From the NCBI RefSeq assembly GCF_024266585.1, contig NZ_CP100647.1, forward strand, positions 3,081,001-3,145,000: DNA of 64,000 nucleotides, in the 5' to 3' direction. Numbering within the stretch: the stretch's first letter is position 1; each line of letters begins with the position of its first letter. The notes beneath the pieces are model-generated. The model was not told where the DNA came from, ran no database searches, and saw only the letters and a list, made by a program, of their open reading frames with translations. The position numbers were made by a program, and so were the translations under genes. The stretch comes from Xanthomonas sacchari. GTDB lineage: Bacteria > Pseudomonadota > Gammaproteobacteria > Xanthomonadales > Xanthomonadaceae. This document shows positions 30,403 to 52,900 of the stretch, piece by piece.

Positions 30403-31515
30403 CTATTCCCGATTCCCGATTCCCGAATCCCGCGCCTCCAGGCGCACCCCACTCTCGGCATCGAAGAAGTGCAGCGCGTCGCCGCGCACCGCCACCCGCA
30501 GGCGCTCGCCCAGGCCCGGCAGCGCGCGCGGCGCCACCCGCATCACCAGCGGCTGCGCGCCATGGCTCAGATTGACGAAGATCTCGTTGCCGACCGGCTC
30601 GATCACCTCGATGGTGGCGTCGAAGCCGCCCTGCGCCGCGTCGCTGGGCTGCAGATGCTCCGGGCGCACGCCGATCGCCAGCTCCCGGCCCAGCCACTGC
30701 GGCGCGACCTGCGCGCCCGGCAGCGGCACCCGGCCGCCGTCGTCCAGTTGCAGCTGCAGGCCACCGTCCTCAACCAGCCGCCCGCGCAGCACGTTCATCG
30801 CCGGGCTGCCGAGGAAGCCGGCCACGAACAGGTTGGCCGGGCGGTCGTACAGCGCCATCGGCGTGTCGATCTGCTGGATCAGCCCGTCCTTGAGCACGAC
30901 GATGCGCTGGCCCAGGGTCATCGCCTCGACCTGGTCGTGGGTGACGTAGATCATGGTGGTGCCGAGCTTGCGGTGCAGTTGCGCGATCTCGGTACGCACC
31001 GAATGGCGCAGCTTGGCGTCCAGGTTGGACAGCGGCTCGTCGAGCAGGAACACCGCCGGCTCGCGTACCAGCGCGCGGCCCAGCGCCACGCGCTGGCGCT
31101 GGCCGCCGGACATGGCGCGCGGCAGCTTGTCCAGCATCGGGGTCAGGCCCAGGGTGTCGGCGGCGGCGGCCACGCGCTGGGCGATGACCTGCTTGCTCTC
31201 GCCGCGCAGCTTGAGCCCGAACGCCAGGTTCTCGGCCACGGTCATGTGCGGGTACAGCGCATAGCTCTGGAACACCATGGCGATGTCGCGGTCCTTCGGC
31301 GCCACCTCGTTGACCACGCGCTCGCCGATGCGCAGCTCGCCGCCGCTGATCTCCTCCAGGCCGGCGATCATCCGCAGCAGCGTGGACTTGCCGCAGCCCG
31401 ACGGCCCGACCAGCACCATCAGTTCGCCGTCGGCCACTTCGAAGCTGGCCCCGTGCACGGCGACCTGGCCGTTGTCGTAGACCTTGCGGATGTTGTCCAG
31501 TTGTACTTTCGCCAT
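30403..31515 (-). CDS. ugpC: sugar ABC transporter ATP-binding protein (MalK/UgpC family)
   Basis: 370 residues with Walker A GPSGCGKST, signature MSGGQRQR, Walker B VFLLDEPLSNLD and a C-terminal TOBE/regulatory domain (about 235-360). UgpC is a family name here; the sugar is not known. No permease or binding-protein gene adjoins it, but an ABC operon at 44019-47037 has no ATPase of its own and both have the same LacI-type operator upstream. The C-terminal seven residues come from an intergenic repeat. Divergent from zwf. Confidence 0.9.
   Translation of the reverse strand: MAKVQLDNIRKVYDNGQVAVHGASFEVADGELMVLVGPSGCGKSTLLRMIAGLEEISGGELRIGERVVNEVAPKDRDIAMVFQSYALYPHMTVAENLAFGLKLRGESKQVIAQRVAAAADTLGLTPMLDKLPRAMSGGQRQRVALGRALVREPAVFLLDEPLSNLDAKLRHSVRTEIAQLHRKLGTTMIYVTHDQVEAMTLGQRIVVLKDGLIQQIDTPMALYDRPANLFVAGFLGSPAMNVLRGRLVEDGGLQLQLDDGGRVPLPGAQVAPQWLGRELAIGVRPEHLQPSDAAQGGFDATIEVIEPVGNEIFVNLSHGAQPLVMRVAPRALPGLGERLRVAVRGDALHFFDAESGVRLEARDSGIGNRE
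30404..30432. repeat. ATTCCCG heptamer repeat at ygfZ/ugpC junction
   Basis: Four ATTCCCG-type units. The ugpC-type gene runs through them, so its last residues (SGIGNRE) are repeat-encoded. Confidence 0.85.
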
Positions 31516-31913
31516 GTATCCGGTTTCCGGCAGGAGGAACGGGCTGCCGCCGGTCCCTCCCGAAGGCAGTGCATACGAATTCGCGTCGCATCGTGGCTGC
31601 GCACAGGCAACAATGCAGCGCGATGCGGTATTCTGCCATGTAACCGTTTTCACGGGGCAACATCGAGCCTGGGAGGGCACGCAATGCGATCCGCCAGCCG
31701 CCGATCCGGCGCGCCGTCGTCATCCGGCCTGCAGTACGAGGCATCGGAGAGGTATGCTCAGAGGTCTGGCAGTCGTATTCATCTCCTGGATCGTGCGTTC
31801 CCGCCTGGCGGCCATCCCGCCTCATGCCCTCGCCCGAACCGGCCGGATACAGGCCGTTCCCGCCGTACGCTTTCCCACGCCACGTCCCTACTAGCCCCCA
31901 GGTGATCGACGAC
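31516..31913. other. divergent control region between ugpC and zwf
   Basis: About 400 nt without a credible gene, holding the LacI-type operator at 31639. Promoters for both the ATPase gene and the Entner-Doudoroff operon should lie here. Confidence 0.6.
31639..31653. promoter_or_regulatory. LacI-family operator, site 1
   Basis: TGTAACCGTTTTCAC, an imperfect palindrome with central CG. It matches sites at 48667-48681 and 52886-52900 at 13 of 15 positions in each case. It lies 124 nt before ugpC and 260 nt before zwf. Confidence 0.65.
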
Positions 31914-33377
31914 ATGTCACCCGAAACCGAAACCCGGTCGATGCACGATACTTTCCTGCTGTTCGGCGCCACCGGCGATCTGGCCCAGCGCTATCTGTTC
32001 CCCTCGCTGCTGCGCATGCTCGACGACGGCTTCCTGCCGGAAGACTTCCGCATCCGCGCGCTGGCGCTGTCGCCGCACGACACCGCCAAGTTCCACGAGA
32101 TCCTCAAGCCGCGCCTGCAGGCGGCGATGCCGCAGATCGGCGAATCGATCGTGCAGGCGCTGCTGGCGCGCATCGACTACCGCTCGGTGGACCTGCGCGA
32201 TCCCGAATCGGTGGCCGCGGCCGTGCGCGACCTGACCACGCGCCGCTGCGTAAGCTACCTGGCGATCCCGCCGGGGCTGTACATCAGCACCTGCCAGGGC
32301 CTAGCCCTGGGCGGGGCGCTGGCCGCGCCGCACCGGCTGATGCTGGAGAAGCCGATCGGCCACGATTCGGAGAGCGCCCGCGAGATCGTGCAGGCGATCG
32401 GCGCGCTGATCGACGAGGACCGCGTGTTCCGCCTGGACCACTACCTGGGCAAGGCCGCGGTGCAGAACCTGATCGCGCTGCGCTTCGGCAACACGCTGCT
32501 GGAAGCGGTGTGGAACCGCACCTACATCGAGTCGGTGGACATCCTGGTCGCCGAGAGCGAGGGCGTGGACGGCCGCGATGCCTACTACGCGCGCTCCGGC
32601 GCGCTGCGCGACATGGTGCAGAGCCATATCCTGCAGTTGCTGTGCCTGGTGGCGATGGAGCCGCCGGCGTCGCTGGAAGCCGACCGCATCCGCGACGAGA
32701 AGGTCAAGGTGCTGCGCGCGCTGCGTCCGCTGAGCGCAGAGCATGCCGCCCGCGACAGCGTGCGCGGGCGCTACACCGCCGGCACCGTCAACGGCCAGCC
32801 GGCGCAGGCCTACCAGCCGCCGGAAGGCAGCGACGTGGAGACCTTCGCCGCGGTCACCGCCTACATCGACAACTGGCGCTGGGCCGGCGTGCCGTTCCGG
32901 CTGTGTACCGGCAAGCGCCTGGCCGAGCGCTCCACCCGCGTGGTGGTCACGCTCAAGCCGGTCACCCACTGGCTGTTCGAGCGCCCGACCGCTCAGCAGG
33001 CCGCGCCGAACCGGCTGACCTTCCAGCTGCAGCCGCAGGAGAACATCGAACTGGGGCTGATGAGCAGCCTGGCCGGCCCGGAATGGGGCGCGCTGGAACT
33101 GCAGCCGCTGGAACTGGAACTGTCGGTGCCCACCGGCCTGCACCGGCGCATCGCCTACGAGCGGCTGATGCTCGACGCGCTCAACGGCAACCACGCGCTG
33201 TTCGTGCGCGACGACGAGGTGCGCGCGGCCTGGGCCTGGATCGACAGCGTCAGCGCCGCCTGGGCGCAGGCGCAGTTGCCGTTGCTGCCCTACCCGGCCG
33301 GCAGTTGGGGGCCGCAGGAAGCGCAGGCCTACGTGTCCTGCGATCACGCCGGCGCCGCGCCGCGGGTCGCCCCGTGA
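31914..33377 (+). CDS. zwf: glucose-6-phosphate 1-dehydrogenase
   Basis: 487 residues. The N-terminal dinucleotide fold is FGATGDLAQRYLFPSL, and the active-site block RLDHYLGK is near residue 170. It converts glucose-6-phosphate to 6-phosphogluconolactone, first step of the Entner-Doudoroff route. ATG 31914 has AGGTGA upstream; MHDTFLLFG at 31941 is an alternative. First gene of zwf-glk-pgl-edd-eda; its stop overlaps the glk GTG. Confidence 0.96.
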   Translation: MSPETETRSMHDTFLLFGATGDLAQRYLFPSLLRMLDDGFLPEDFRIRALALSPHDTAKFHEILKPRLQAAMPQIGESIVQALLARIDYRSVDLRDPESVAAAVRDLTTRRCVSYLAIPPGLYISTCQGLALGGALAAPHRLMLEKPIGHDSESAREIVQAIGALIDEDRVFRLDHYLGKAAVQNLIALRFGNTLLEAVWNRTYIESVDILVAESEGVDGRDAYYARSGALRDMVQSHILQLLCLVAMEPPASLEADRIRDEKVKVLRALRPLSAEHAARDSVRGRYTAGTVNGQPAQAYQPPEGSDVETFAAVTAYIDNWRWAGVPFRLCTGKRLAERSTRVVVTLKPVTHWLFERPTAQQAAPNRLTFQLQPQENIELGLMSSLAGPEWGALELQPLELELSVPTGLHRRIAYERLMLDALNGNHALFVRDDEVRAAWAWIDSVSAAWAQAQLPLLPYPAGSWGPQEAQAYVSCDHAGAAPRVAP

Positions 33378-34381
33378 GCGCGCCGCAACGCCCGGTGCTG
33401 GTCGCCGACATCGGCGGCACCAATGCCCGCTTCGCCCTGGCCGACCTCGACGCCTCGGTGCCGCTGCTCGACGACAGCACCCAGACCTACGCGGTGGTGG
33501 AGTTCCCCTCGCTGGGCGACGCCGCCCGCCATTATCTGGAGCAGACCGGGGTGGACGCGCGCAGCGGCACCTTCGCGGTCGCCGGCCGCGTCGACGGCGA
33601 CGAGGCGCGCATCACCAACCATCCCTGGGTGATCTCGCGGGCGCGCACCCGCGCCATGCTCGGCTTCGACGAACTGCACCTGATCAACGACTTCGCCGCG
33701 CAGGCGATGGCGATCAGCCTGCTGCGGCCGCAGGACGTGGTCCAGGTCGGCGGCGCCAGCTGGACGCCGTCGGCGATCGAGGTGCCGCGCAACTACGGCG
33801 TGATCGGTCCCGGCACCGGCCTGGGCGTGGGCGGCCTGCTGGTGCGCGGCGGGCGCTGCTTTCCGCTGGAGACCGAGGGCGGCCATGTCAGCTTCCCGCC
33901 GGGCACGCCGGAGGAGATCCGCATCCTGGAACTGCTGTCGCAGCAATTCGGCCGCGTCTCCAACGAGCGCCTGATCTGCGGCCCCGGCCTGGTCAACATC
34001 CACCGCGCGCTCAGCGAGATGGCCGGCGACGATCCGGGCCCGCTGCAGCCGGAGGACATCACCGCGCGCGCCGCGCACGGCGACTACCGGGCGATGCGCA
34101 CGGTGGACGTGTTCTGCGCCGTGTTCGGCGCCATCGCCGGCGACCTGGTGCTGATGCAGGGCGCCTGGGACGGCGTGTTCCTGACCGGCGGGCTGGTGCC
34201 GAAGATGCTCGACGCGATTCAGCATTCCGGGTTCCGCCAGCGCTTCGAGCACAAGGGCCGGTTTTCGTCGATCATGGCGCGGGTGCCGTCGCTGGCGGTG
34301 ACCCACCCCCGTCCCGGCCTGCTCGGCGCCGCCGCCTACGCGGTGGACGCCGCGCGGCAATCCCCAGGAGCCATTGCATGA
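33374..34381 (+). CDS. glk: glucokinase
   Basis: 335 residues of the bacterial hexokinase-type glucokinase family. N-terminal phosphate motif VLVADIGGTNARFAL, catalytic INDFAAQA, and GVIGPGTGLGVGGL. It phosphorylates glucose with ATP. The GTG start overlaps the zwf TGA (GTGA), so the two are coupled; its own stop overlaps pgl (ATGA). Confidence 0.95.
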   Translation: MSAPQRPVLVADIGGTNARFALADLDASVPLLDDSTQTYAVVEFPSLGDAARHYLEQTGVDARSGTFAVAGRVDGDEARITNHPWVISRARTRAMLGFDELHLINDFAAQAMAISLLRPQDVVQVGGASWTPSAIEVPRNYGVIGPGTGLGVGGLLVRGGRCFPLETEGGHVSFPPGTPEEIRILELLSQQFGRVSNERLICGPGLVNIHRALSEMAGDDPGPLQPEDITARAAHGDYRAMRTVDVFCAVFGAIAGDLVLMQGAWDGVFLTGGLVPKMLDAIQHSGFRQRFEHKGRFSSIMARVPSLAVTHPRPGLLGAAAYAVDAARQSPGAIA

Positions 34382-35097
34382 GCCCCACGCTGTCCGACCG
34401 CATCACGCTGATCCGCTACGACGATCCGGACGAATGGATCGACGCGGCGGCGGCCGAGATCGGCACCGCGCTGCGCGAGGAGATCCAGCGGCGCGGCGGC
34501 GCGCGCCTGCTGCTGTCCGGCGGCACCACCCCGGCGCCGGTGTACCAGGCGCTGGCCGAGCTGCCGCTGGACTGGTCGAAGCTGGAAGTCGGCCTGGTCG
34601 ACGAGCGCTGGCTGTCGCCGCAGGACAGCGACAGCAACGCCTACCTGGTCCGGCACAGCCTGCTGGACCGCGCCGAGGAAGCGCGCTTCGAACCGCTGGT
34701 GCGGGTCGGCAAGCCGCTGCAGGATTGCGTGCACGCCGCCAACCTGCACGCGCAGCACGCCCCCGCCGCCTGCATGGCGGTGCTGGGCATGGGCGGCGAC
34801 GGCCACACCGCCTCGCTGTTCCCGGGCGCCACCGACCTGAACAAGGCCCTGGCCAACCCGCTGCCCTACGCCGCGCTCGACGCCACCGGCTGCCCCGGCG
34901 CCAACACCTGGCCGCTGCGCATCACCCTGACTCCGGCCGGCCTGGCGCCGATCGGCCAGCGCATGCTGCTGCTGCGCGGCAAGCAGAAGCTGGAGGTGCT
35001 GGAACGCGCCCTGGCCGGCACCGATCCGCACGAATACCCGATCCGCGTGGCCTTCGATACGCCTGGCGCGCGCCTGCGCGTGCATTGGTGCGAGTGA
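34378..35097 (+). CDS. pgl: 6-phosphogluconolactonase
   Basis: 239 residues with LLLSGGTTPAPVYQAL, the VGLVDERWL motif and GMGGDGHTASLFPG, all standard for DevB-type lactonases. Hydrolyses 6-phosphogluconolactone to 6-phosphogluconate. ATG overlaps the glk stop. Confidence 0.95.
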   Translation: MSPTLSDRITLIRYDDPDEWIDAAAAEIGTALREEIQRRGGARLLLSGGTTPAPVYQALAELPLDWSKLEVGLVDERWLSPQDSDSNAYLVRHSLLDRAEEARFEPLVRVGKPLQDCVHAANLHAQHAPAACMAVLGMGGDGHTASLFPGATDLNKALANPLPYAALDATGCPGANTWPLRITLTPAGLAPIGQRMLLLRGKQKLEVLERALAGTDPHEYPIRVAFDTPGARLRVHWCE

Positions 35098-35100
35098 GGC

Positions 35101-35207
35101 CGGGAGTGGGGAGTCGGGAGTGGGGAATCGCAACGGCCGCGCGCTGACGCGTTCCCGCTCTTCCTATTCCCGCGCTTCCCATTCCCGATTCCCGATTTCC
35201 GATTCCC
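35101..35207. repeat. complete inverted heptamer-repeat element between pgl and edd
   Basis: Left arm GGGAGTGGGGAGTCGGGAGT-like units (35101-35130), GC-rich centre, right arm of ATTCCCG units (35164-35207). Same architecture as 26541-26633. Confidence 0.85.
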
Positions 35208-35228
35208 CCTTCATAGCCACTTCCGCCA

Positions 35229-37145
35229 ATGAGCCTGCATCCAACCCTCCACGCGATCACCGAACGCATCCGTGAACGCAGTGCGCCGTCGCGGCGCGCC
35301 TACCTGGCCGGCATCGATGCCGCGCTGCGCGACGGCCCGTTCCGCAGCCGCCTGAGCTGCGGCAACCTCGCCCACGGCTTCGCCGCCTGCGGCCCCACCG
35401 ACAAGAGCCGGCTGGAAGGCGGGATCACCCCCAACCTCGGCATCATCACCGCCTACAACGACATGCTCTCGGCGCACCAGCCGTTCGAGCACTACCCGGA
35501 GATCATCCGCAGCACCGCGCGCGCGCTCGGCGCCACCGCGCAGGTCGCCGGCGGCGTGCCGGCGATGTGCGACGGCGTGACCCAGGGTCGGCCGGGCATG
35601 GAGCTGTCGCTGTTCTCGCGCGACGTGATCGCCCAGGCCACCGCGATCGGCCTGAGCCACGACATGTTCGACACCAGCCTGTACCTGGGCGTGTGCGACA
35701 AGATCGTGCCCGGCCTGCTGATCGGGGCGCTGGCCTTCGGCCACCTGCCGGCGGTGTTCGTGCCGGCCGGGCCGATGACCCCGGGCATCCCCAACAAGCA
35801 GAAGGCCGAGGTGCGCGAGCGCTACGCCGCCGGCCAGGCCACCCGCGAGGAACTGCTGGCCGCCGAATCGGCGTCCTACCACGCCCCCGGCACCTGCACC
35901 TTCTACGGCACCGCCAACTCCAACCAGGTGCTGCTGGAAGCGATGGGCGTGCAGTTGCCCGGCGCCTCCTTCGTCAACCCCGGCACCCCGCTGCGCGAGG
36001 CGCTGACCCAGCAGGCGACCGAGCGCGCGCTGCGCATCACCGCGCTGGGCACCGACTTCCGCCCGCTGGGCCGGTTGATCGACGAGCGCGCCATCGTCAA
36101 CGCCGTGGTCGCGCTGATGGCCACCGGCGGTTCCACCAACCACACCATCCACTGGCTGGCGGTGGCGCGCGCGGCCGGCATCGTGCTGACCTGGGACGAC
36201 CTGGACGCGCTGTCGCAGCTGGTGCCGCTGCTGGCGCGGGTGTATCCGAACGGCGAGGCCGACGTGAACCACTTCGCCGCCGCCGGCGGCATCGGCTTCG
36301 TGTTCCGCGAGCTGATGGACGCCGGGCTGATGCACGACGACCTGGCCACCATCGTGCCCGGCGGCATGCGCGCCTACGGCGACGAGCCGTGCCTGCAGGA
36401 CGGCAAGCTGGCCTACGTGCCGAGCCCGGCCAAGAGCGCCGACGAGGCGGTGGTGCGCCCGGCGTCCAACCCGTTCGAGGCGCAGGGCGGCCTGCGCCTG
36501 CTGCGCGGCAACCTCGGCCGCTCGCTGATCAAGCTGTCGGCGGTGAAGCCGCAGTTCCGCACCATCGAAGCCCCGGCCGTGGTGATCGACGCGCCGCAGG
36601 CGCTGAACAAGCTGCATGCCGCCGGCGCGCTGCCGCACGACTTCGTGGTGGTGCTGCGCTACCAGGGACCGCGGGCCAACGGCATGCCGGAACTGCATTC
36701 GCTGGCGCCGCTGCTGGGCCTGCTGCAGAACCAGGGCCGGCGCGTGGCGCTGGTCACCGACGGGCGCCTGTCCGGCGCCTCCGGCAAGTTCCCCGCGGCC
36801 ATCCACGTGACCCCGGAAGCGGCGCGCGGCGGCCCGCTGGCGCGGGTGCGCGAAGGCGACATCGTGCGCCTGGACGGCGAGGCCGGCACCCTGGAAGTGC
36901 TGGTCGACGCCGCCGAGTGGGCGGCACGCCCGCTGGCGCCGAACACCGCGCCGGCCGCGCACGACCTGGGCCGCAACCTGTTCGGGCTCAACCGCCGCAT
37001 GGTCGGCCCCGCCGACCAGGGCGCGCTGTCGATCTCCTGCGGCCCGCCGGCCGCCGACGGCGACCTGTGGAACTACGACGCCGAGTACGACCTGGGCCGC
37101 GATGCCGAAGCCGCCGCCGCGCCGCACGAGGCCAAGGACGCCTGA
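35229..37145 (+). CDS. edd: phosphogluconate dehydratase
   Basis: 638 residues of the IlvD/Edd Fe-S dehydratase family. Features include [31 protein letters not shown] and [11 protein letters not shown], with cluster cysteines in CDGVTQG and [11 protein letters not shown]. Converts 6-phosphogluconate to KDPG. Separated from pgl by the heptamer repeat element, presumably same operon. Confidence 0.96.
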
Positions 37146-37171
37146 CCGGCGCCGCCGCTCGCCCTCCCCTG

Positions 37172-37193
37172 CCCCGGCCGTGCGCGGCCGGGG
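37172..37193 (+). other. strong GC hairpin between edd and eda
   Basis: CCCCGGCCG-TGCG-CGGCCGGGG, a 9-bp perfect stem with a tetraloop, starting 27 nt after the edd stop and with no T run. May block RNA decay or set relative expression of edd and eda. Confidence 0.6.
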
Positions 37194-37220
37194 CCTCGCC
37201 CCCTCGCAACCGAGACACTC

Positions 37221-37874
37221 ATGACCATCGCCGAACACCAGACCAAGGCCGAACAACTGCTGCGCGCGGCCGGCATCCTGCCCGTCGTCACCGTCCACAG
37301 CCTGGAGGAGGCCCGCCGCGTGTCGGCCGCGCTGCTCGAAGGCGGACTGCCGGCGATCGAACTGACCCTGCGCACGCCGGTGGCGATGGAAGCGCTGGCG
37401 ATGCTCAAGCGCGAACTGCCGGACATCGTGATCGGCGCCGGCACCGTGCTCACCGCCACCCAGCTGCAGCAGTCGATCGACGCCGGCGCCGACTTCATCG
37501 TCACCCCGGGCACCACCCCGACCCTGGCCGACGCGCTGGCGCAGGCGCCGCTGCCGGTGGTGCCGGGCGCGGCCACCCCGAGCGAACTGCTGGCGCTGAT
37601 GGAACGCGGTTTCCGCGTGTGCAAGCTGTTCCCCGCCTCCGCCGTCGGCGGCCTGGCGATGCTCAAGGGCCTGGCCGGCCCCCTGGCCGAGCTCAAGCTC
37701 TGCCCCACCGGCGGCATCGGCGAAAGCACCGCCGCCGAGTACCTGGCGCAACCCAACGTGGTCTGCATCGGCGGCTCGTGGATGGTGCCCAAGGACTGGC
37801 TGGCCGACGGCGCCTGGGACAAGGTGCGCGAGAGCTCGGCGAAGGCGGCGGCGATTGTGGCGGCGGCGCGGTAG
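37221..37874 (+). CDS. eda: 2-dehydro-3-deoxy-phosphogluconate aldolase
   Basis: 217 residues. KDPG aldolase of class I; the Schiff-base Lys lies in CKLFPASAVGG and the catalytic Glu in LPAIELTLRTP. Splits KDPG into pyruvate and glyceraldehyde-3-phosphate. Last gene of the Entner-Doudoroff operon. Confidence 0.96.
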   Translation: MTIAEHQTKAEQLLRAAGILPVVTVHSLEEARRVSAALLEGGLPAIELTLRTPVAMEALAMLKRELPDIVIGAGTVLTATQLQQSIDAGADFIVTPGTTPTLADALAQAPLPVVPGAATPSELLALMERGFRVCKLFPASAVGGLAMLKGLAGPLAELKLCPTGGIGESTAAEYLAQPNVVCIGGSWMVPKDWLADGAWDKVRESSAKAAAIVAAAR

Positions 37875-37882
37875 CGCTTAGC

Positions 37883-37911: not shown

Positions 37912-37955
37912 GTTAAAAGCCAGAGCCTCGGCTCTCACAACTCAACTCCAGAAAC

Positions 37956-44018: not shown

Positions 44019-44855
44019 TCACCCCTTCACGCTGCCGAGCAGCAGGCCCTGGATGTAGTAGCGCTGCAGGGCCAGGAACAGGGCCAGCACCGGAACCACC
44101 GTGACCACCGCGCCGGCCATCATCATCTCCACGTCCATGATGTGCTCGCGTGACAGCGCCGCCAGGGCCACCGGCAAGGTGTAGTGCTCCTGGTCGGTCA
44201 GCACGATCAGCGGCCACATGAAGTCGTTCCACGCGGCCATGAAGGTGAAGATGGTCAGCGTGACCAGCACCGGCTTGAGCATCGGCAGCACGATCTGGAA
44301 GAAGATCCGCAACTCGCCGGCGCCGTCGATACGGGCGGCCTCCAGCAGCTCGTCCGGGATCGAACGCGCGTACTGGCGCACCAGGAAGATGCCGAACACC
44401 GTCGCTAGCGCCGGCACGATCACGCCGCCGAAGTTGTTGACCAGGTGCAGCTGCTTCATCAGCAGGAACAGCGGCAGCATCGCCACCTGCGCCGGGATCA
44501 CCAGCGCCGCCAGCAGGATCTGGAAGATCCGTTCCTTGCCGACGAAGCGCAGCTTGGCGAAGGCATAGCCGGCCATGGTGTTGATCAGCAGCGAGCCGAA
44601 GGTGATCGCGCAGGACACCAGCAGGCTGTTGGCGAAGTTGCGCGCCATGCCGGTGCGCGAGAACAGCTCGCCATAGTTGGCCAGGGTGGCGCCGGTGGGC
44701 AGCATCGGCGGCGGGAAGCGGCTGGCCTGCCCCGCCGGCATGAACGACACCGACACCATCCACAACAGCGGCGCCAGGCTGATCACGGCGAGCAGCAGCA
44801 GCCCGCCGTTGACCAGCAGCGTGTTCCAGCGCGAGGCGCCGATCTCCCGGCTCAT
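44019..44855 (-). CDS. sugar ABC transporter permease (MalG type)
   Basis: 278 residues, six hydrophobic helices, with the EAA loop ELLEAARIDGAGELRIFFQIVLPMLKP that contacts the ATPase. Of the carbohydrate CUT1 class. ATG overlaps the stop of the partner permease (ATGA). Last gene of the GH144-SBP-permease-permease operon. Confidence 0.92.
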   Translation of the reverse strand: MSREIGASRWNTLLVNGGLLLLAVISLAPLLWMVSVSFMPAGQASRFPPPMLPTGATLANYGELFSRTGMARNFANSLLVSCAITFGSLLINTMAGYAFAKLRFVGKERIFQILLAALVIPAQVAMLPLFLLMKQLHLVNNFGGVIVPALATVFGIFLVRQYARSIPDELLEAARIDGAGELRIFFQIVLPMLKPVLVTLTIFTFMAAWNDFMWPLIVLTDQEHYTLPVALAALSREHIMDVEMMMAGAVVTVVPVLALFLALQRYYIQGLLLGSVKG

Positions 44856-45733
44856 ACCAGGTCCCTCTTGCGGCCGAAGCGCAGCATCACCGTCGTCACT
44901 CCCAGGATGATCAGGAACAGCAGGAACGCCACCGCCGAGGCGCGGCCGAGGTTCCACCACTTGAAGCCTTCCTCGAACATGTAGTACAGCACGCTGACCG
45001 TGCTCTGCAGCGGATCGCCGCGGGTCATCACGTAGGGTTCGGCGAACAGCTGGAAGTAGCCGGACACGGTGATCACCCCGACCACCAGCAGCACCGGCCC
45101 GAGCATCGGCAGGGTGATGTGCAGGAACTGCCGCCACTTCGAGGCGCCGTCGATACGCGCGGCCTCGTACAGGTCCTGCGGGATCGCCTGCAGCCCGGCG
45201 AGGAAGATCACCATGTTGTAGCCGAAGTTCTTCCACACCGCGAACAGCATGATCGTCGGCATCGCCCAGTGCGGATCGCCGAGCCAGTCGATCGGGCCGA
45301 TGCCCAGGTGCGCCAGGCCGTAGTTGACCAGGCCGTAGCTGGTGTGGAACAGGTAGCGCCAGATCACCGCCACCGCCACCAGCGTGGTCACCACCGGCGC
45401 GAACAGCGCGGTGCGGAACAGCGCCTTGAAGCGCGCCACCGGCGCGTTCAGCAGCAGCGCCGCGCCCAGCGAGGCGCCGATGGACAGCGGCACGCCGACG
45501 ATCACGAAGTACGTGGTGTTCCACAGCGACTTCCAGAACATCGGCGTCTGCAGCAACTCGATGTAGTTGCCGAAGCCGACGAAGCGCAGGTTGTGGCGGT
45601 CGGCCAGCGAGTACAGGTCGAAGTCGGTGACGCTCAGCGCCAGCGCCGACAGCACCGGCAGGCCGAAGAACACGCCGATCACGATCAGCGCCGGGCCGGC
45701 GAACAGCCAGCCGATCAGGGAACCGCGCTTCAT
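44852..45733 (-). CDS. sugar ABC transporter permease (MalF type)
   Basis: 293 residues, six helices, EAA loop DLYEAARIDGASKWRQFLHITLPMLGP. CUT1 class partner of the MalG-type permease. Overlaps the binding-protein stop by four nt. No ATPase gene follows; the nearest is at 30403-31515. Confidence 0.92.
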   Translation of the reverse strand: MKRGSLIGWLFAGPALIVIGVFFGLPVLSALALSVTDFDLYSLADRHNLRFVGFGNYIELLQTPMFWKSLWNTTYFVIVGVPLSIGASLGAALLLNAPVARFKALFRTALFAPVVTTLVAVAVIWRYLFHTSYGLVNYGLAHLGIGPIDWLGDPHWAMPTIMLFAVWKNFGYNMVIFLAGLQAIPQDLYEAARIDGASKWRQFLHITLPMLGPVLLVVGVITVSGYFQLFAEPYVMTRGDPLQSTVSVLYYMFEEGFKWWNLGRASAVAFLLFLIILGVTTVMLRFGRKRDLV

Positions 45734-47037
45734 GGGGCCGCTCCCGCGGCCGGCGCCGCCGTGCCTTCGCGGTGCTGCTGGTGGATCCAGCGGCGTTTCT
45801 CCAGGATCTCGTCGACCCGCTTGTCCAGTTCCCGCATCGCCTTCTCCTGGGGTTCGCCGCCGCGCACCACCCGCTCGGTGGCCAGCCGCATCTCCTGCAC
45901 GATGCGCTCCCACTCCAGGACCTTCGGTGCCGGCTTGACCCGCTCCAACTGGTCGCGGAACGCATGCGCCAGCGGATCGTCGGCCAGCGACGGATACGCC
46001 CAGGTACTGCGCCGCGGCGGCATGTCGCCGATCAGCGCGTGGAAGCGCGCCTGGATCTGCGGCCGCGACAGGAACTCGATCAGCTTCCACGCCGCGTCCT
46101 TGTGCTCGGACTTGCGGAAGATCACCAGGCTGGTGCCGCCGGCGATACCCGCGCCGGGGCCGTCCGGGCCCGGCAACGGCATGGTGCCCCACTGGTCCTT
46201 GAGCGCCGGCGGCTGCACCTTGCGGAACTCGCGGATGTTCCACGGGCCGGAGATGTAGAACGCATAGAAGCCGTTGAAGAACTCGTCCCAGACGTTGGAG
46301 ATCTGCGTCTCGGACATCTTCGGCGCCCAGCCCTGCTCGAACATGTTGGCGTAGAACGCCAGCGCCTTGCGGAAGCCGGGGCTTTCGAAGTTGCCGTAGT
46401 TGTTGTGGTCGCGCAGCAGCGGATCGGGCAATTGCAGGCCCAGCGACAGCTGCTGCTCGAACTCGTTGAGCGGCATCAGGATCGCGTAGCGCTTCGGCCC
46501 CACGTGCTTCTTCACCGCCGCCATCGCCTGTTCCCATTCGGCCCAGGTCTGCGGCAGCTTGGTCACCCCGGCCTCGCGCAGCATGTCCTTGCGGTAGAAC
46601 AGCAGGCGCGTGTCCACGTACCAGGGGATGCCGTAGAGCTGGCCGTCGATGACGCTGGTGTCCCAGATCCCGGGGAAGTAGTCCTTCGGATCCACCACCT
46701 TGGAACGGTCGACGTACGACTGCAGCGGCTGCAGCGTGCCCAGTTCGGCGAACTCGGGAATCCAGGTGTTGCCCAGCTGGCACACGTCCGGCAACCCGTC
46801 GGCGGCGAAGGCGGTGAGCAGCTTCTCGTGCGCGGCGGTCCAGGGGATGTTCTGGATGTCCACGTGGATGCCGGGGTTCTCCTTCTCGAACTGCGGAATC
46901 AGCTCGGCCACCACCTCGGCCTCGCGGCCCATCGCCCAGAACCGCACCACCTCGCCCTGCGGCGCGCGCGCGCATCCGCACACGGCCACGACCAACAGGC
47001 CCAACGACAACCAACGACCGATCATGCGTGTGCTCAT
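45730..47037 (-). CDS. sugar ABC transporter substrate-binding lipoprotein
   Basis: 435 residues. Lipobox VAVCGC near residue 20-22, then a type-I extracellular solute-binding fold (VVRFWAMGREAEVVAELIPQ, GIPWYVDTRLLFYRKDML, AGGTSLVIFRKSEHKDAAWK). In Gram-negative cells it is likely anchored to a membrane facing the periplasm. Substrate probably an oligosaccharide. Its ATG overlaps the glucanase stop. Confidence 0.92.
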   Translation of the reverse strand: MSTRMIGRWLSLGLLVVAVCGCARAPQGEVVRFWAMGREAEVVAELIPQFEKENPGIHVDIQNIPWTAAHEKLLTAFAADGLPDVCQLGNTWIPEFAELGTLQPLQSYVDRSKVVDPKDYFPGIWDTSVIDGQLYGIPWYVDTRLLFYRKDMLREAGVTKLPQTWAEWEQAMAAVKKHVGPKRYAILMPLNEFEQQLSLGLQLPDPLLRDHNNYGNFESPGFRKALAFYANMFEQGWAPKMSETQISNVWDEFFNGFYAFYISGPWNIREFRKVQPPALKDQWGTMPLPGPDGPGAGIAGGTSLVIFRKSEHKDAAWKLIEFLSRPQIQARFHALIGDMPPRRSTWAYPSLADDPLAHAFRDQLERVKPAPKVLEWERIVQEMRLATERVVRGGEPQEKAMRELDKRVDEILEKRRWIHQQHREGTAAPAAGAAP

Positions 47038-48656
47038 TCGGGCTTCTGCGGCTGGCGCTGGTCGGGATTCTGTTGCGCCTGCGCAGCGGCGGCACGCGAT
47101 TCGGCGATGCCGATCGCCCGCGCCGCAGCGGCCTGCTCGTCCTTCTTCGGCACCGGCTGCGCCTCGCCTTCCGGGGTGAGCCAGCCGCCGGTGAAGCCGG
47201 CGCGCTCCAGTCCGGTGCGAATGTACTTGTTCTTCTTCATCACGTTCCAGACGAACTCGTTGCGGTAGTTGGCGATCATGGCCAGGATCGGCCCCTGGTC
47301 GATGCCGATGTAATCGCTGGACACCCAGCCGCGGCCGGGCACCACGCGTCCGGTCTTCAGCGGAATATCGTAGTTGAAGCTGGGGTTGAACGAATCCAGG
47401 AAACCGTAGCTGGAGTAGATGAAGTCGCCGTAGCGCTTGTGCATCTCCTCGGTGGCCGGAATCACCACCTCCGGCGCGAACACTAGCGAGGCCACCGCTG
47501 CGGTCGGCGCGATGGTGCCATCGTCGAAGTTCTCGCGCAGGCCGGCGCCGCGCGAGGAATAGTGACGGAACTGGCGCTGTTCGCCACGGTATTCCTGCTC
47601 GGTGTTCTGCGGACCGTCACTGGCGGTCAGGCCCCACACATTCTCGCCGTAGTCCTTCCACTTCATCGGATTGGCGATGGCGTACTCACGCTGCGCCAGC
47701 GCCGCGCGCCGGCTGTTGAGGAAGTAGTCGATGCCGCGCTCGCGCATGTACTGGTCCTGGATATCGCGGAAGTCGATCCAGACATGGCTGTACTGGTGCG
47801 CGAACATCGGCCCGAACGACAAGTATTCCTGGCCGTAGTACACGCCCCAGTCGTTGTTGTAGGTGCGGGTCCATACCGTCCACGCGTCCGGGCTCACCGC
47901 ATGGGTCGGCGAGCCCAACGCCAGCACGTACAGCATCATCGCTTCGTTGTAGCCCATCCAGTCGTGGCTGATGAACCCGCTCTCGGGGAACCAGCCCATC
48001 GAGATCAACGGATCGCGCACCTGCAGCCAGGTCCAGTCCACGCGCTTGTACAGCGTGTCGGCGATCTCGCGAATCTCCTTCTCGCGCGGGTCGTCTCCGT
48101 CGTAGTACGACTGCGCGAACAGCACGCCCATCATCAGCAGCGCGGTATCCACGCTCGACAGCTCCACCCAGCTATCGTAACGGCGGCCGTTTTGCATATC
48201 GAGAAAGTGGTAATAGAAGCCCTTGTAGCCGGCCTTGCCGGTGCGCTGCGGGCCAACCGGCACATCGCGGAAGAACTTCAGCGTGGTCAAGGTGCGATCC
48301 ACCGCCTGGGTGCGGCTGATCCAGCCGTTCTCAATGCCGATGGGATACGCCGTCAGCGAGAACCCCACCGAGGCGATGCTGGCGAACGGACGCGACGGGA
48401 AACGGTCGGGGGTCAGGCCATTGGTTTCGTTGGTGGTGTCCCAGAAGAACTGGAAGGTGCGCCGCTCGATGTCGCCGAACAGCTGCGGCAGCTCGGGCTT
48501 CAACGGTTTCGGCGGCAGTTCGGCCTCGACCAGGATCACCTTGACCGGCTTCTTCTCCACCGCCTTCGGCTCCTCGGTCTTCTTGCAGGCCGTCAGCAGC
48601 ACCCCTGCTGCCATCAACATCAACGAAAACCTGATGAAACTGCGCTGCTTCTTCAT
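47034..48656 (-). CDS. GH144-like (glycoamylase-domain) lipoprotein, putative beta-1,2-glucanase
   Basis: 540 residues. Lipoprotein signal with LLTAC at the cleavage site. The catalytic part (about 60-480) carries PF10091-type blocks: RRTFQFFWDTTNETNGLTPD, FGPMFAHQYSHVWIDFRDI, APTAAVASLVFAPEV and YIGIDQGPILAMIANYRN. The family was first called glucoamylase; characterised members (GH144) are endo-beta-1,2-glucanases. So I infer cleavage of beta-1,2-glucan or a similar glycan in the periplasm. ATG 48656 is preceded by GGGGGG and a LacI-type operator 11 nt further up. The Gln/Ala-rich tail is probably disordered. Confidence 0.78.
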   Translation of the reverse strand: MKKQRSFIRFSLMLMAAGVLLTACKKTEEPKAVEKKPVKVILVEAELPPKPLKPELPQLFGDIERRTFQFFWDTTNETNGLTPDRFPSRPFASIASVGFSLTAYPIGIENGWISRTQAVDRTLTTLKFFRDVPVGPQRTGKAGYKGFYYHFLDMQNGRRYDSWVELSSVDTALLMMGVLFAQSYYDGDDPREKEIREIADTLYKRVDWTWLQVRDPLISMGWFPESGFISHDWMGYNEAMMLYVLALGSPTHAVSPDAWTVWTRTYNNDWGVYYGQEYLSFGPMFAHQYSHVWIDFRDIQDQYMRERGIDYFLNSRRAALAQREYAIANPMKWKDYGENVWGLTASDGPQNTEQEYRGEQRQFRHYSSRGAGLRENFDDGTIAPTAAVASLVFAPEVVIPATEEMHKRYGDFIYSSYGFLDSFNPSFNYDIPLKTGRVVPGRGWVSSDYIGIDQGPILAMIANYRNEFVWNVMKKNKYIRTGLERAGFTGGWLTPEGEAQPVPKKDEQAAAARAIGIAESRAAAAQAQQNPDQRQPQKPE

Positions 48657-48666
48657 CGTGCCCCCC

Positions 48667-48681
48667 GTGAAATCGTTTACA
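48667..48681. promoter_or_regulatory. LacI-family operator, site 2
   Basis: The minus strand reads TGTAAACGATTTCAC, 11 nt upstream of the GH144-like ATG, where repressor binding would block initiation. Matches the sites at 31639 and 52886. Confidence 0.7.
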
Positions 48682-48750
48682 CGCACGCAAAAAATAACCC
48701 GCTTTTCCATCGCCGCGGCCCCCGTGGCACGGGAGCCGCGGCGACCCAAC

Positions 48751-51723
48751 TTACCAGTTCAAACCGAATGACAGCTTGAACGTCCGCATCGGCGAAGCGA
48801 GCACGCCGTTCGGCGTGCCGAACGCCGTGTTCAGATCGGCGTAGGTGCCGGTATCGGTGTTGTAGTCCGCGTAATTGGTCCAGTTGAACAGGTTGATGAC
48901 ATCGGCGCGCACGTTGAACTTGATGCCCGACCCGGTATCCCATTCCTTGTTCGCCGCCAGGCTGAATTCCTTGTAGCCCAGCGTGGCGTCCGGCTTGTAC
49001 TGGATGATATAGCACTGGTCGTTGCCCGCCAGGCAGTTGGTGCCGTAGCGCGGGGTCTGGCTGGCCAGCGACAGCTTGGCCGACAGGGTGATGGCGTACG
49101 GCAGATCGTAGATGCCGGTGACCACCAGGCGGTTCTTCGGAATGCCGCCGGCCTCGCGCCAGCCGTAGCCGGCCATCGACGGCTGGTCCAGCGCGTAGTG
49201 CTCGCCGTACTGGCGGTTTTCCTTCGCGTCGGAGAAGGTGTAGGCCACGGTCAGGCCCCAGCCGGACTCCTTGTCGTAGGGTTTGTCCAGCTTCAGCGCC
49301 AACTGGTTGTTGCGCGTCTTCAGCCCATTGGTGCCGAGCACGATCGCGCTGTAGCCGTTGGGCGAGTCGGTGGGCACGCCGGAGGTGGTGCCGGGCAGGA
49401 AGAACGAGCCGTCGGCACGGCGGTTGCCGCGCAGGAACACGAAGCCGTCCTCGCTGACGATGCGGCTCAGGGTCACGTCCGTGTACCAGTCATTGCCCCA
49501 GAAATGCACCATGTTGCGCATGCCCAGGCTGAACTGGTCGGAGTACGGCACCTTGATGTTGTTGTCGATCAGGTAGACCTCGCGGCCGCCGCCGGCGCCG
49601 CCGGTGTTGGAGGCCGCCAGCCCGTCCAGGCCGGCCTGGGTCGCATAGCTCGGATTCCATGCCACGCACGGCTGGCCCAGGCACGGCGTGTTGGCGCTGC
49701 TGAAGTAGTAGCTGTAGGAGCGGAAGTTGTTGTTGAGCTGCTCCAGCGCCAGGTAGTCGAACAGGTTGCGGTCGTAGGCGCGGCCGGCGCCGCCGTAGAT
49801 CACGTGGGCCTGGTCGCCGAACAGGTCGTAGGAGAAGCCCAGCCGCGGCTGCCAGGCGTCCTTGAACGCCTTGCGGTTGTTGCCGGTGCTGATGTAGTTG
49901 GCGATGTCGTAGTTGGCGTTGTCCAGGTTGCGCCAGTTCAGCAGCGCGCTGGCGACGTCGGCGGGGGTGACGAAGTCCAGGAACGACGGGGTCTTCTCGT
50001 AGTCGTAGCGCACGCCCAGGTTCAGGGTCAGGTGCTCGTTGACCTCCCAGTCGTCCTGCAGGTAGATGCCGTACTGCTTGTTCTGCGACTGCACCGAACC
50101 GCCGTCGCCGGTGTCGCCGAAGCGCACCCGGTACGGCGTGCCGACATCGCTGAGGATGTTGTAGTAGTACTGCGGATTGGCCGGATTGATCTGGGTCGAG
50201 TCGAGCTGGATGTCCTTGTACTTCAGGCCCATCTTGATCGTGTGGCTGCCGTGCCAGTCGAGGCTGTTGAGGGTCAGGTCGTCCTGCAGCGTCCAGCCCT
50301 TCTGGCCCTTGTTCTGGAAGCTGCTGCCGGCGCCGGCGCTGAGGATGGTGGTCTCGTTGCCGGCCTGCGGCACGTAGGACAGCACATAGCCGCTGCCGTC
50401 GGTGAGCGGGGTCTGGGTCCAGAACGCGCTCTCGTAGCTCAGGTTCAGGTCGTTGAGGAAGGCCTCGCCGCTGTACTGCCAGCGCAGGTTGGCGCGCTTT
50501 TCCTTCTGCCCGTTGCTGCTGCCGTGCTGGTAGGTGGTGGTATCGCCGATGTCCGACAGCTCGTCTTCCTTGCGGTACTTGCCGGTCAGCTCGAACAGGT
50601 TGTTGTCGCCCAGCGTCCAGTCGATCTTGCCGAAGTACAGGTCTTCCTTGAACGGCGTGCTGTAGGTGGCGACCAGCGGCTGCAGCTGCGCCGGCAACTG
50701 GTCGACGCGGTCGGCGTAGATGCCGCCGGGGATCACCGTGTTGGGCGTGGTGTATTCCTTGGCCTCGTAGGCCACGAAGAAATGCGCGCGGTCCTTGAGG
50801 ATCGGGCCGCTGAAAGTGGCGCCGTACTGGGTCTCGGAGAAATCGTCGCGCTGGCCGGCCTTGCGCTCCAGCGGACTCTCGGCGCGCCAGTCGTCGTTGG
50901 TCGTATCCCAGAAGAAGCTGCCGTGGAAATCGTTGGTGCCGGACTTGGTCGAGGCGACGATCGCCGCGCTGCTGACCTGGTCGAACTCGGCCTTGTAGTT
51001 GGAGGTGATGACCTTGTACTCGCCGATCGCCGACTGCGGGAACGGGTTGCCGCGGCTGGAATCCTGGCCGCTGACGCCGCCGGTCAGCACGTAGTTCTTC
51101 TGGCTGATGCCGTCGATGTAGACGTTGGTGCCGTTGGCCGAGGTCGCGCCGGAGCGCACCGTGGTGTTGCCCTTGGCGTCGCGCTGGAACTGCACGCTCG
51201 GCACGCTGTCGGCCAGCTCCAGGAAGTTGCGCGTGGCCTGCGGCAGCTTCTCGATCTGCGCGTTGGAAATGTAGGTGGCGTTCTCCGAGGTGCGGGTTTC
51301 CACCAGCACCGGCGGCGCCTGCACCTGCACCGCATCGAGCGTGGTCGCGCCCTGTCCGTTGGCGGCGGCCGCCTCGCCGCCCACGCCCAGGTCCAGGGTG
51401 GCGGTCTGGCCGACCTGCACGGTGACGTTCTGCGAGGTGGTCTTGCCGTCGGCGGTGACGTCGATGCGATAGGACCCCGGCGGCAGACCGCCGACCGAAT
51501 AGATGCCGTTGCTGGCCTGCACGCTGCGGCTCAGACCGGTGGCCAGATTGGTGGCGGTGACCTGCGCGGACGCGGCCGGCGCCGAATCGACCTTGACCTG
51601 TCCGCGAATGGTGGCGCCGGTGCTTTGCGCGAATGCCGGCGCGGCGCCCAGCAACAGGCAGCTGGCGAGGGCGCAGCTCAACAGCTTGCGCGTGGGCCGG
51701 GCGGAGTGCGGGGTGTGGTGCAT
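48751..51723 (-). CDS. TonB-dependent receptor with N-terminal carboxypeptidase-regulatory-like domain (Oar-like)
   Basis: 990 residues. Signal peptide ending AFAQ at about 32, then a Cna_B-type beta sandwich (about 33-115, with LPPGSYRIDVTADGKT), a plug (about 130-240), and a long barrel ending KLSFGLNW. This class in xanthomonads takes up plant-derived carbohydrates (CUT loci). Strong GGAGG upstream of ATG 51723. Between the LacI gene and the glucanase/ABC operon, same strand, suggesting it brings the glycan across the outer membrane. Confidence 0.92.
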   Translation of the reverse strand: MHHTPHSARPTRKLLSCALASCLLLGAAPAFAQSTGATIRGQVKVDSAPAASAQVTATNLATGLSRSVQASNGIYSVGGLPPGSYRIDVTADGKTTSQNVTVQVGQTATLDLGVGGEAAAANGQGATTLDAVQVQAPPVLVETRTSENATYISNAQIEKLPQATRNFLELADSVPSVQFQRDAKGNTTVRSGATSANGTNVYIDGISQKNYVLTGGVSGQDSSRGNPFPQSAIGEYKVITSNYKAEFDQVSSAAIVASTKSGTNDFHGSFFWDTTNDDWRAESPLERKAGQRDDFSETQYGATFSGPILKDRAHFFVAYEAKEYTTPNTVIPGGIYADRVDQLPAQLQPLVATYSTPFKEDLYFGKIDWTLGDNNLFELTGKYRKEDELSDIGDTTTYQHGSSNGQKEKRANLRWQYSGEAFLNDLNLSYESAFWTQTPLTDGSGYVLSYVPQAGNETTILSAGAGSSFQNKGQKGWTLQDDLTLNSLDWHGSHTIKMGLKYKDIQLDSTQINPANPQYYYNILSDVGTPYRVRFGDTGDGGSVQSQNKQYGIYLQDDWEVNEHLTLNLGVRYDYEKTPSFLDFVTPADVASALLNWRNLDNANYDIANYISTGNNRKAFKDAWQPRLGFSYDLFGDQAHVIYGGAGRAYDRNLFDYLALEQLNNNFRSYSYYFSSANTPCLGQPCVAWNPSYATQAGLDGLAASNTGGAGGGREVYLIDNNIKVPYSDQFSLGMRNMVHFWGNDWYTDVTLSRIVSEDGFVFLRGNRRADGSFFLPGTTSGVPTDSPNGYSAIVLGTNGLKTRNNQLALKLDKPYDKESGWGLTVAYTFSDAKENRQYGEHYALDQPSMAGYGWREAGGIPKNRLVVTGIYDLPYAITLSAKLSLASQTPRYGTNCLAGNDQCYIIQYKPDATLGYKEFSLAANKEWDTGSGIKFNVRADVINLFNWTNYADYNTDTGTYADLNTAFGTPNGVLASPMRTFKLSFGLNW

Positions 51724-51827
51724 GTGGGGTTTTCCCTCCAGGAAGACGTGATGCTCGTTATGGGTGGTGCGTGGTGCTTCGATGAAACGAAGTGGAACAA
51801 GCGATGCGGCGCGAAACACGCGTCGCA

Positions 51828-52841
51828 TCAGGAACGGGCCGTGCTGGAATCGCGCACGACCAACGTAGGAACCAGGGTCTGCCGCCGCCCGTCGTCCGCG
51901 TCGGGCCGATCGATCAGTTGCAGTAGACGATGCATCGCCTGCTCACCAAGCCCGGCGATGCTGACGCGCATGGTGGTGAGAGACGGGTGAACGAAACGCG
52001 CCAGCGGAATGTCGTCGAAACCGGCCAACGCGATGTCGTTGGGCACGCGCACACCGTGCTGGGTGAAGGCGTAGAGACAGCCGAGCGCGGTCATGTCGTT
52101 GGCGGCGAACACCGCATCGGGCAGCGTGCCCGCCTGCAGCATCGCCTGTCCGGCGCGATACCCGGAGGCTTCGTCGAAGTCGCCCGGGAACTCCTGGCCG
52201 TGCGCTTCGCCGGGATGGCGCGCAATGGCGTCGCGGAAACCACGCAGGCGTTCGCGCGCGTCGAAATTCAGTTCCGGGCCACCGATGAAGGCGATGCGGC
52301 GATGCCCCATCGCCAGCAGGTGTTCGGTCATCGCCACCGCGCCGGCATGGTCGTCGATGCTCAGCACCGGGTACTCGGTGCCCGGCAGGTGGGTGTTGAT
52401 CAACACCGTCGGCAGCGCCTGCGGCAGGTTGTCGGTGAGGAAGCCCGGGCGCTCGGCATACGGCGACAGCACCAGCAGGCCGTCGACGCGCCCGCGCATC
52501 GCCCGCAGCGCCCGCCCCTGCTCTTCCGGGTCGCCGTGGTAGCTGGACACCAGCAGGTGCTGGCGGCGCGCGCGGGCGGCGCCGTCGATGCCGCGGATCA
52601 GTTCGGAGAAGAACTCGCCGTACAGGTCGGGCAGCACCACCCCCAGGGTCTGGGTGCGGCGGCTGCTGAGGCTGCGCGCCGCCGCATGCGGGCTGTAGCG
52701 CAGGCGCTCGGCCACTTCCAGCACCAGGGTCCGCACCGGCGCGGCCACGTTCTCATGGCCATTGAGCGCACGCGACACGGTGGCCACCGAGACCCGGGCT
52801 TCGCGTGCAACGTCTTTGATGGTAACCGCGCTCTTCGCCAT
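51828..52841 (-). CDS. LacI-family transcriptional regulator
   Basis: 337 residues: N-terminal helix-turn-helix (VTIKDVAREARVSVATVSRALNG) with hinge helix (SPHAAARSLSSRRT), then a periplasmic-binding-protein-like sensor domain. ATG 52841 has GGAGG eight nt upstream; the GTG at 52856 lies on that site and is rejected. An operator-like palindrome 44 nt upstream suggests autoregulation. It is the obvious controller of the adjacent glycan genes. Confidence 0.94.
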   Translation of the reverse strand: MAKSAVTIKDVAREARVSVATVSRALNGHENVAAPVRTLVLEVAERLRYSPHAAARSLSSRRTQTLGVVLPDLYGEFFSELIRGIDGAARARRQHLLVSSYHGDPEEQGRALRAMRGRVDGLLVLSPYAERPGFLTDNLPQALPTVLINTHLPGTEYPVLSIDDHAGAVAMTEHLLAMGHRRIAFIGGPELNFDARERLRGFRDAIARHPGEAHGQEFPGDFDEASGYRAGQAMLQAGTLPDAVFAANDMTALGCLYAFTQHGVRVPNDIALAGFDDIPLARFVHPSLTTMRVSIAGLGEQAMHRLLQLIDRPDADDGRRQTLVPTLVVRDSSTARS

Positions 52842-52885
52842 CGTGCCGCCCTCCACGGCAGAGACCTTGAGAAACTGGCGCGGAC

Positions 52886-52900
52886 TGTAATCGTTTTCAG
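52886..52900. promoter_or_regulatory. LacI-family operator, site 3
   Basis: TGTAATCGTTTTCAG, before the LacI gene. Shares TGTAANCG and TTTCA with sites 1 and 2. Confidence 0.65.

Follow-up and report, generated by a model that had tools for sequence, protein, structure and literature searches.

A LacI-type repressor that appears to switch on beta-1,2-glucan import and breakdown jointly in Xanthomonas and its relatives

A gene cluster with three candidate operators

The window analysed here is a stretch of 64,000 nucleotides (positions 3081001-3145000) of the Xanthomonas sacchari genome (G000; 4,889,028 bases). It carries a putative gene cluster for the uptake and breakdown of a sugar polymer together with the gene of a LacI-family repressor. 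Three nearly identical, partly palindromic sites in the cluster were proposed in an earlier note on this DNA to be operators of that repressor, and are the subject of this work. A sequence scan finds all three:

52886..52899, plus strand: putative lacI operator, TGAAAACGATTACA when read on the gene strand, 44 bp before the ATG at 52841
48668..48681, minus strand: putative operator of the GH144 and ATP-binding cassette (ABC) importer operon, 11 bp before the GH144 ATG
31639..31652, plus strand: putative operator between the divergent genes ugpC and zwf, 123 bp upstream of the ATG of ugpC and 261 bp upstream of that of zwf (31914)

Mismatches were scored against the core TGTAANCGNTTTCA, in either reading, or against its symmetric form TGTAANCGNTTACA. 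As the earlier note held, there is no fourth copy; the exact core is absent from the rest of the window. The operator at 31639 is preceded by TATTCTGCCA. The sole further match with at most two mismatches covers 31515-31528, over the ugpC start; this two-mismatch site also occurs in two sister genomes and sits on the coding start. The neighbouring genes had been read correctly, as judged from Pfam and NCBIfam profile matches of the window proteins, and are as follows:

51828..52841, minus strand: LacI-family repressor, 337 amino acids (Pfam LacI, Peripla_BP_3)
48751..51828 (open frame), minus strand: TonB-dependent receptor-like outer-membrane protein (OMP_b-brl_4, CarboxypepD_reg, TonB_dep_Rec_b-barrel)
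47034..48656, minus strand: GH144 beta-1,2-glucanase (PF10091), orthologue of XCC2207/XcSGL
45730..47037, minus strand: sugar-binding protein of the ABC importer (SBP_bac_1)
44852..45733, minus strand: importer permease of UgpA/MalF type (profile matches)
44019..44855, minus strand: importer permease of UgpE/MalG type (profile matches)
40570..43695, minus strand: GHx, a glycosidase of uncertain family (profile matches), part of the recurring cluster
30403..31515, minus strand: UgpC-type ATPase (NF008653 UgpC, above cut-off)
31914..33377, plus strand: zwf, glucose-6-phosphate dehydrogenase (TIGR00871, above cut-off)
33395..34381, plus strand: glk, glucokinase (PF02685)
34378..35097, plus strand: pgl, 6-phosphogluconolactonase (PF01182)
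35229..37145, plus strand: edd, 6-phosphogluconate dehydratase (PF00920, PF24877)
37221..37874, plus strand: eda, 2-keto-3-deoxy-6-phosphogluconate aldolase (PF01081)

The LacI protein combines a LacI helix-turn-helix (VSVATVSRALNG) and the hinge PHAAARSL with a periplasmic-binding-like effector domain, and reaches the cut-off of no NCBIfam model. The receptor matches the barrel and CarboxypepD_reg profiles and has no Pfam Plug match at 1e-3; its likelier start is the later Met at 51723, after which a signal-peptide-like stretch follows. The N-terminus of GH144 (...LLTACKK) marks it, by eye, as a lipoprotein, and the UgpC-type ATPase presumably serves the ABC importer. In relatives the order ugpC - [zwf-glk-edd] - GHx - permeases - binding protein - GH144 - receptor - lacI - scpA recurs with local variations; Stenotrophomonas rhizophila is among the species that possess both the cluster and its sites. 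The window shares this order, which recurs across the Xanthomonadaceae as a single cluster, and the regulon is thus better described as one cluster with additional unlinked members than as the split regulon of the earlier note.

Rarity, conservation and probable partner of the sites

Within the window, seven matches with at most two mismatches were counted (the three sites on both strands and 31515), against 0.82 +/- 0.93 in shuffled sequence, and none of the 100 shuffles reached this count. Genome-wide, six exact copies of the core are present, namely the three window sites and those at 317846, 2293766 and 2395869, where the base composition of this genome's fetched stretches would predict about 0.04; the pattern read backwards has no exact occurrence. 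The symmetric form TGWAANCGNTTWCA is found at eight places and its control at none. Three exact and at least two relaxed sites lie outside the window, all of them absent from the earlier note. A wider regulon made of all 14 central-CG palindromes of the genome was considered and rejected, since the TGTAA half is missing from some of them, TGCAATCGATTGCA and TGAAAGCGCTTTCA among others; the second of these two falls inside a predicted gene.

Central-CG palindromes are used by many LacI-family regulators. This, together with the 12 LacI helix-turn-helix genes of the genome, would favour the view that the three sites resemble a widespread LacI consensus by coincidence. The rarity of the motif genome-wide and the footprints described below contradict it, and we regard a chance origin as extremely improbable. 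The two outcomes that the earlier note had named as refuting its proposal, a motif no commoner in the genome than by chance and sites not kept along with conserved genes, were both put to the test, and the proposal withstood them.

The sites recur where the genes are kept. LacI-relative loci were drawn from Xanthomonas, Stenotrophomonas, Pseudoxanthomonas and a few others, the best 80 of 546 confirmed loci being kept. A site with at most one mismatch is present in the 120 bp upstream of lacI in 80/80 of them (57 exact), compared with a rate of 0.08% in order-1 Markov resamplings; the half sites are TGA in 55 loci, TGG in 23 and TGT in two. At GH144 such a site lies between -260 and +40 in 69/78 loci. 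For ugpC it is found within 300 bp upstream in 29/33 genomes (26/30 in a first set and 3/3 in the added G013, G035 and G040), the remainder being G025, with two mismatches, G009, G043 and G053. A central-CG near-palindrome thus precedes both the regulator's own gene and sugar genes and is kept in their orthologues, as is characteristic of a local sugar regulon of the LacI family. The sites also drift together in places: in G046 those of ugpC, GH144, lacI and the unlinked beta-glucosidase gene GH3b all read TGGAA/TTCCA, and in G035 both sites do so. Of the 16 loci whose ugpC site is exact, 13 have a TATTCT box 4-5 bp ahead of it. Several operators lie shortly downstream of a putative -10 box, a placement that would suit a repressor acting simply by blocking transcription. 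Upstream of lacI the window has a single operator; many Xanthomonas genomes (L030-L045 and others; L199, L202) have a pair there, in opposite reading and separated by 46 bp.

A published mutation falls on one of these sites. When S. maltophilia D457 was passaged without peptide, clone DA61863 acquired a single-nucleotide polymorphism at NC_017671.1:3154404, between LacI and BolA genes, which its authors describe as affecting no predicted -10 or -35 box (PMC7529437). This nucleotide is position 13 of the site TGGAAACGCTTACA (3154403-3154416; L060 9937-9950) upstream of the D457 lacI orthologue. The intergenic stretch spans about 160 bp by our own gene call, and a mutation falling within it would hit the 14 bp by chance with a probability of about 9%; the bearing of this control-line mutation on the regulon is suggestive, no more.

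Presence of the motif was compared with presence of the repressor in a sample of 59 genomes from 46 genera of the Xanthomonadaceae, with LacI called at E<=1e-60. The gene is found in 34/59 genomes and the exact motif in 30/59; 29 genomes have both, five LacI only, one the motif only and 24 neither, so that the two agree in 53/59 (Fisher p = 1.2e-10, with no correction for phylogeny). Among the LacI-only genomes (G025, G035, G040, G046 and G047), the first four have relaxed sites in the expected places. In the motif-only genome, G008, the site falls in a region that matches an ATPase at 28%. G043 and G053, where LacI is absent at this threshold, keep GH144, the importer, GHx, ugpC and GH3b, and their fetched stretches contain no site within one mismatch. 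Exact matches left without gene annotation include G029:C8, G029:C9 and G002:C15.

A second LacI protein could nonetheless be the main binder, or share the sites. The paralogue encoded at genome positions 164476-165483 is 62% identical, has the same recognition helix (VSVATVSR) and a near-identical hinge, and adjoins a similar receptor, for which Plug likewise gave no match, and a gene resembling tryptophan halogenases. That 27/34 genomes have a single LacI match at E<=1e-60 argues against it: with a second copy in just seven, the sites do not require the paralogue, even if it may share them. Moreover, in the fetched stretches the cluster copy is the one with the site before it, and near the paralogue just the variant TGTAACCGCTTGCA is found, more than 300 bp upstream. 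We consider a leading part for the paralogue unlikely, and retain the cluster LacI as the probable regulator. The variant itself occurs at 165858, upstream of the locus of paralogous LacI, plugless receptor and halogenase-like gene, and at 1499452, before a gene for class I fructose-bisphosphate aldolase (L023, L024); this pair may be a second, two-site regulon belonging to the paralogue. In two genomes (L186/L187, L192), a receptor and a halogenase-like gene related to the paralogue's locus are situated inside the beta-1,2-glucan cluster.

Unlinked candidate targets and the ugpC-zwf region

The three sites of the earlier note are real, and its regulon is too narrow. Three unlinked candidate genes are added:

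765425-767599 (genome): GH3b, a cytoplasmic-looking beta-glucosidase, no signal peptide by eye
2291531-2293780 (genome): GH3a, signal peptide by eye, site over an in-frame ATG at the gene beginning
1131217-1132008 (genome): DUF481 outer-membrane barrel gene, site with at most two mismatches upstream

In eight genomes of five genera (G000, G051, G006, G001, G057, G015, G038 and G037), 10-13 bp separate the end of TGTAAACGTTTTC[TC] from the GH3b start as projected, and CTAGAAT or a similar box lies upstream. G046 has its own variant and G016 a palindrome 38 bp away; the upstream region in G009 (L255) was not judged, as the alignment starts at residue 51.

The exact GH3a site covers the in-frame ATG in six genomes of three genera. 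It reads ATGAAAACGTTTACA in G057 and three genomes of the window's genus, ATGAAACCGTTTACA in G015 and ATGAAAACGATTACA in G037, and G001 has ATGGAACCGATTACA, with one mismatch. The exact sites vary solely at the N positions of the motif, and amino acids change with them (Thr/Pro, Phe/Ile); changes confined to free positions, yet altering the protein, speak for a constraint on the DNA. An earlier in-frame start lies five codons upstream in G037, G057, G015 and G001, where the site may consequently be inside the coding sequence, and is lacking in G000 and G006.

The DUF481 gene has a site with at most two mismatches in 13/14 genomes with LacI and in 0/12 without it, a count that leaves out a second copy in G038 (L293, three mismatches); such a site occurs in 0.7% of resampled 280-bp stretches. 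Exact sites also precede two further DUF481 genes (G039, G045). That the barrel (L019:7215-8009) recurs as a candidate target suggests a role in glucan passage. Five motif hits, from two genera, have a DUF2628 gene beside them, and two, from one genus, a DUF3829 gene; both kinds of gene were met solely next to motif hits, a sample that gives no unbiased count, and they perhaps belong to the regulon. Sites in G011 precede a sulfatase, an acyl-CoA dehydrogenase and a plug-bearing TonB receptor, and one in G014 lies near lipoyl synthase; these were not counted as targets.

GH3b also bears on the divergent region around 31639. At thresholds of 1e-120 for UgpC and 1e-60 for GH144, both proteins are present in the same 33/59 genomes. 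In 19 of the 33, a gene for a GH1 beta-glucosidase lies across the site, divergent from and within 250 bp of ugpC. The remaining 14 coincide with the genomes that have a GH3b of at least 75% identity, a line drawn after viewing the list; at these thresholds none has both enzymes, and weaker GH3 relatives occur in both groups. This clean exclusion suggests that GH3b may do the work of GH1. Of the 14 genomes without that GH1, zwf adjoins ugpC in 13.

The earlier note placed the 31639 site before both the ATPase and zwf. The ATPase side holds, since ugpC keeps the site in both arrangements; zwf is replaced as its neighbour by GH1 in 19 genomes. An operator for zwf only was rejected as the principal interpretation, since the site stays with ugpC even in genomes where the two genes are not adjacent. 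These same observations favour the opposite alternative, namely that the site controls ugpC alone and the link to zwf is an accident of gene loss. The TATTCT box before the operator in the zwf direction, present also where GH1 is absent, tells against it, and we give this alternative serious weight, somewhat short of an even chance. The promoter at 31639 may have been inherited from a lost GH1 gene. An open frame of 73 codons with a Shine-Dalgarno-like stretch begins at about 31684, some 32 bp after the 31639 operator and before zwf; it may be a leader remaining after the loss of GH1.

Substrate, proposed circuit and related systems

The earlier note spoke of glycan uptake and catabolism. The glycan can be specified further, the evidence pointing to beta-1,2-glucan. 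GH144 matches PDB entry 8xul (XCC2207) with 1110 bits, and the PF10091 domain and this orthology place it in its family; activity of XCC2207, or XcSGL, on beta-1,2-glucan has been reported (PMC12102758). The best match of the binding protein is 3uor, the X. citri orthologue in apo form (731 bits), followed by Lin1841 (5ysb; E=2e-68), and it is thus related in sequence to the sophoro-oligosaccharide binders of the Lin1841 type, with 5ysb second to 3uor. Lin1841 is reported to bind beta-1,2-gluco-oligosaccharides (PMC13084667, PMC12369401). GH3b matches Lin1840 at 5e-145, ranking below several other beta-glucosidases.

The same LacI and sites might instead serve a maltose- or trehalose-like sugar, as in a MalEFG-type regulon. 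The name Xac-MalE given to 3uor, which was solved apo, and a weak match of GHx to the oligosaccharide amylase model TIGR01577 point in this direction. The shown activity of the GH144 orthologue on beta-1,2-glucan, the presence of UgpC and GH144 in the same 33 genomes, the rank of Lin1841 as the binder's best chain after 3uor, and the other enzymes at the sites, which are GH3 and, in relatives, GH1, all oppose it, and make such a substrate decidedly unlikely. Control of beta-1,2-glucan uptake and catabolism by the LacI repressor is the best reading of the sequence evidence.

In xanthomonads, beta-1,2-glucans are described as periplasmic glucans and infection factors, and a cyclic beta-1,2-glucan of 16 glucoses, closed by an alpha-1,6 bond, is reported to be vital to X. 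campestris for infecting model plants (PMC11228985). GHx has, by eye, a signal peptide, CBM11-like and CBM32-like modules and an (alpha/alpha)6-barrel glycosidase. It may be related to the GH15 barrels of glucodextranase and bacterial glucoamylase; in the barrel region, the model of GHx is too weak for catalytic residues to be placed. The regulon could be a recycling and scavenging circuit for the alpha-1,6-cyclised glucan, in which GHx, taken as a GH15-like barrel with glucan-binding modules, would be the missing enzyme that opens or removes the single alpha-1,6 bond; this proposal is tentative, and we hold it to be rather doubtful.

Taken together, the data suggest, with a probability of roughly 0.8, that the three sites are operators of one LacI repressor (51828-52841), which would control its own gene, the glucanase, importer and UgpC genes, and the unlinked GH3a, GH3b and DUF481 genes. 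The earlier proposal that the adjacent LacI controls all of its sites gains from their rarity, their footprints and their co-presence with the LacI gene; physical binding we infer.

Several observations weigh against this reading. The 80 LacI loci are close relatives and not independent. GH144 has no site with at most one mismatch in 9/78 loci, zwf is 261 bp from its site, and a sigma-70 promoter scan found no promoter at the sites, the -10 boxes being identified by eye. TGGAA is found in 23/80 lacI sites, and S. maltophilia loci keep an unchanged GH144 site beside it, so the drift is not always concerted. G047 has LacI and no site was found in it; G009 retains LacI and its own site with none before ugpC. 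The loss of LacI in its sister G053 is consequently not an independent case, and the fetched stretch of G043 also lacks the receptor. No site lies upstream of GH3b in G025, G043 and G053, the first of which has LacI, nor at GH3a in G038, G016 and G046. Thresholds for DUF481 and GH3b were set after viewing the data, and the DUF481 genes of genomes without LacI are more divergent. A second LacI match in 7/34 genomes means that the paralogue could bind too, and the orthologue 3uor was published under a maltose-type name.

In the proposed circuit, LacI would repress its own gene, probably along with the outer-membrane receptor behind it, and also the periplasmic GH144 and ABC importer, UgpC, the unlinked GH3a and GH3b, and the DUF481 barrel. 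Binding of beta-1,2-gluco-oligosaccharides, or of glucose released from them, would cause LacI to leave the DNA. The glucan would cross the outer membrane and be cut by GH144, and short sophoro-oligosaccharides would then be imported and converted to glucose by GH3b (by GH1 in other genera). Glucose is predicted to pass through glucokinase to the Entner-Doudoroff enzymes encoded beside ugpC. Through this conserved DNA switch, the import and breakdown of beta-1,2-glucan appear to be induced jointly by a single LacI-type repressor in Xanthomonas and its relatives.

Such a footprinted regulon offers a defined operator, a regulator and a candidate pathway from the outer membrane to the Entner-Doudoroff enzymes. 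GHx, the DUF481 barrel and the plugless receptor are three hitherto unassigned parts that now have a testable role, and the drug-free mutation from laboratory evolution may find its meaning in the operator.

LacI-controlled carbohydrate regulons are a familiar type. The beta-1,2-glucan instance, wider than three sites, was not found described in the open-licence literature searched; a computed description may exist in RegPrecise. The same literature gave no account of how xanthomonads sense or import beta-1,2-glucans. The lin1839 cluster of Listeria innocua is similar in combining an ABC importer that has the Lin1841 binder with a GH3 beta-glucosidase; Lin1839 itself is a phosphorylase. By comparison, the system described here adds the endo-glucanase GH144, outer-membrane parts and a LacI motif linking unlinked loci. 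The Listeria GH3 enzyme, Lin1840, is reported to prefer beta-1,2-gluco-oligosaccharides (PMC12369401). The same source describes a sophorose-preferring GH1 beside a Lin1841-like importer in Streptomyces griseus (SGR_2422-2427), an arrangement that may be compared with the pairing of GH1 and ugpC in 19 genomes of the family. That cluster differs in its host, Streptomyces, and in its GH193 protein, and "LacI" has no occurrence in the main text of PMC12369401.

Within Xanthomonas, the sux locus, of the carbohydrate utilization with TonB-dependent transporter (CUT) type, offers a parallel in which a LacI/GalR-type repressor is grouped with a transporter, a hydrolase and a TonB-dependent receptor (PMC1790865), the counterpart of the last being the receptor-like protein of the present cluster. 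It handles sucrose through a major facilitator superfamily transporter, in contrast to the ABC importer, beta-1,2-glucan and several loci of the present system. XCC2208, which the same source names as having no canonical plug, probably corresponds to the receptor adjoining XCC2207, as judged from its locus number alone. The starch-related LacI locus of X. citri, as far as described in PMC10714752, differs from this regulon. Finally, GluR and BglR of Caulobacter provide a parallel for LacI-family control of zwf-pgl-edd-glk and of beta-glucoside operons (PMC4052901, whose main text contains neither "Xanthomonas" nor "Stenotrophomonas"), where the two tasks are assigned to separate regulators.

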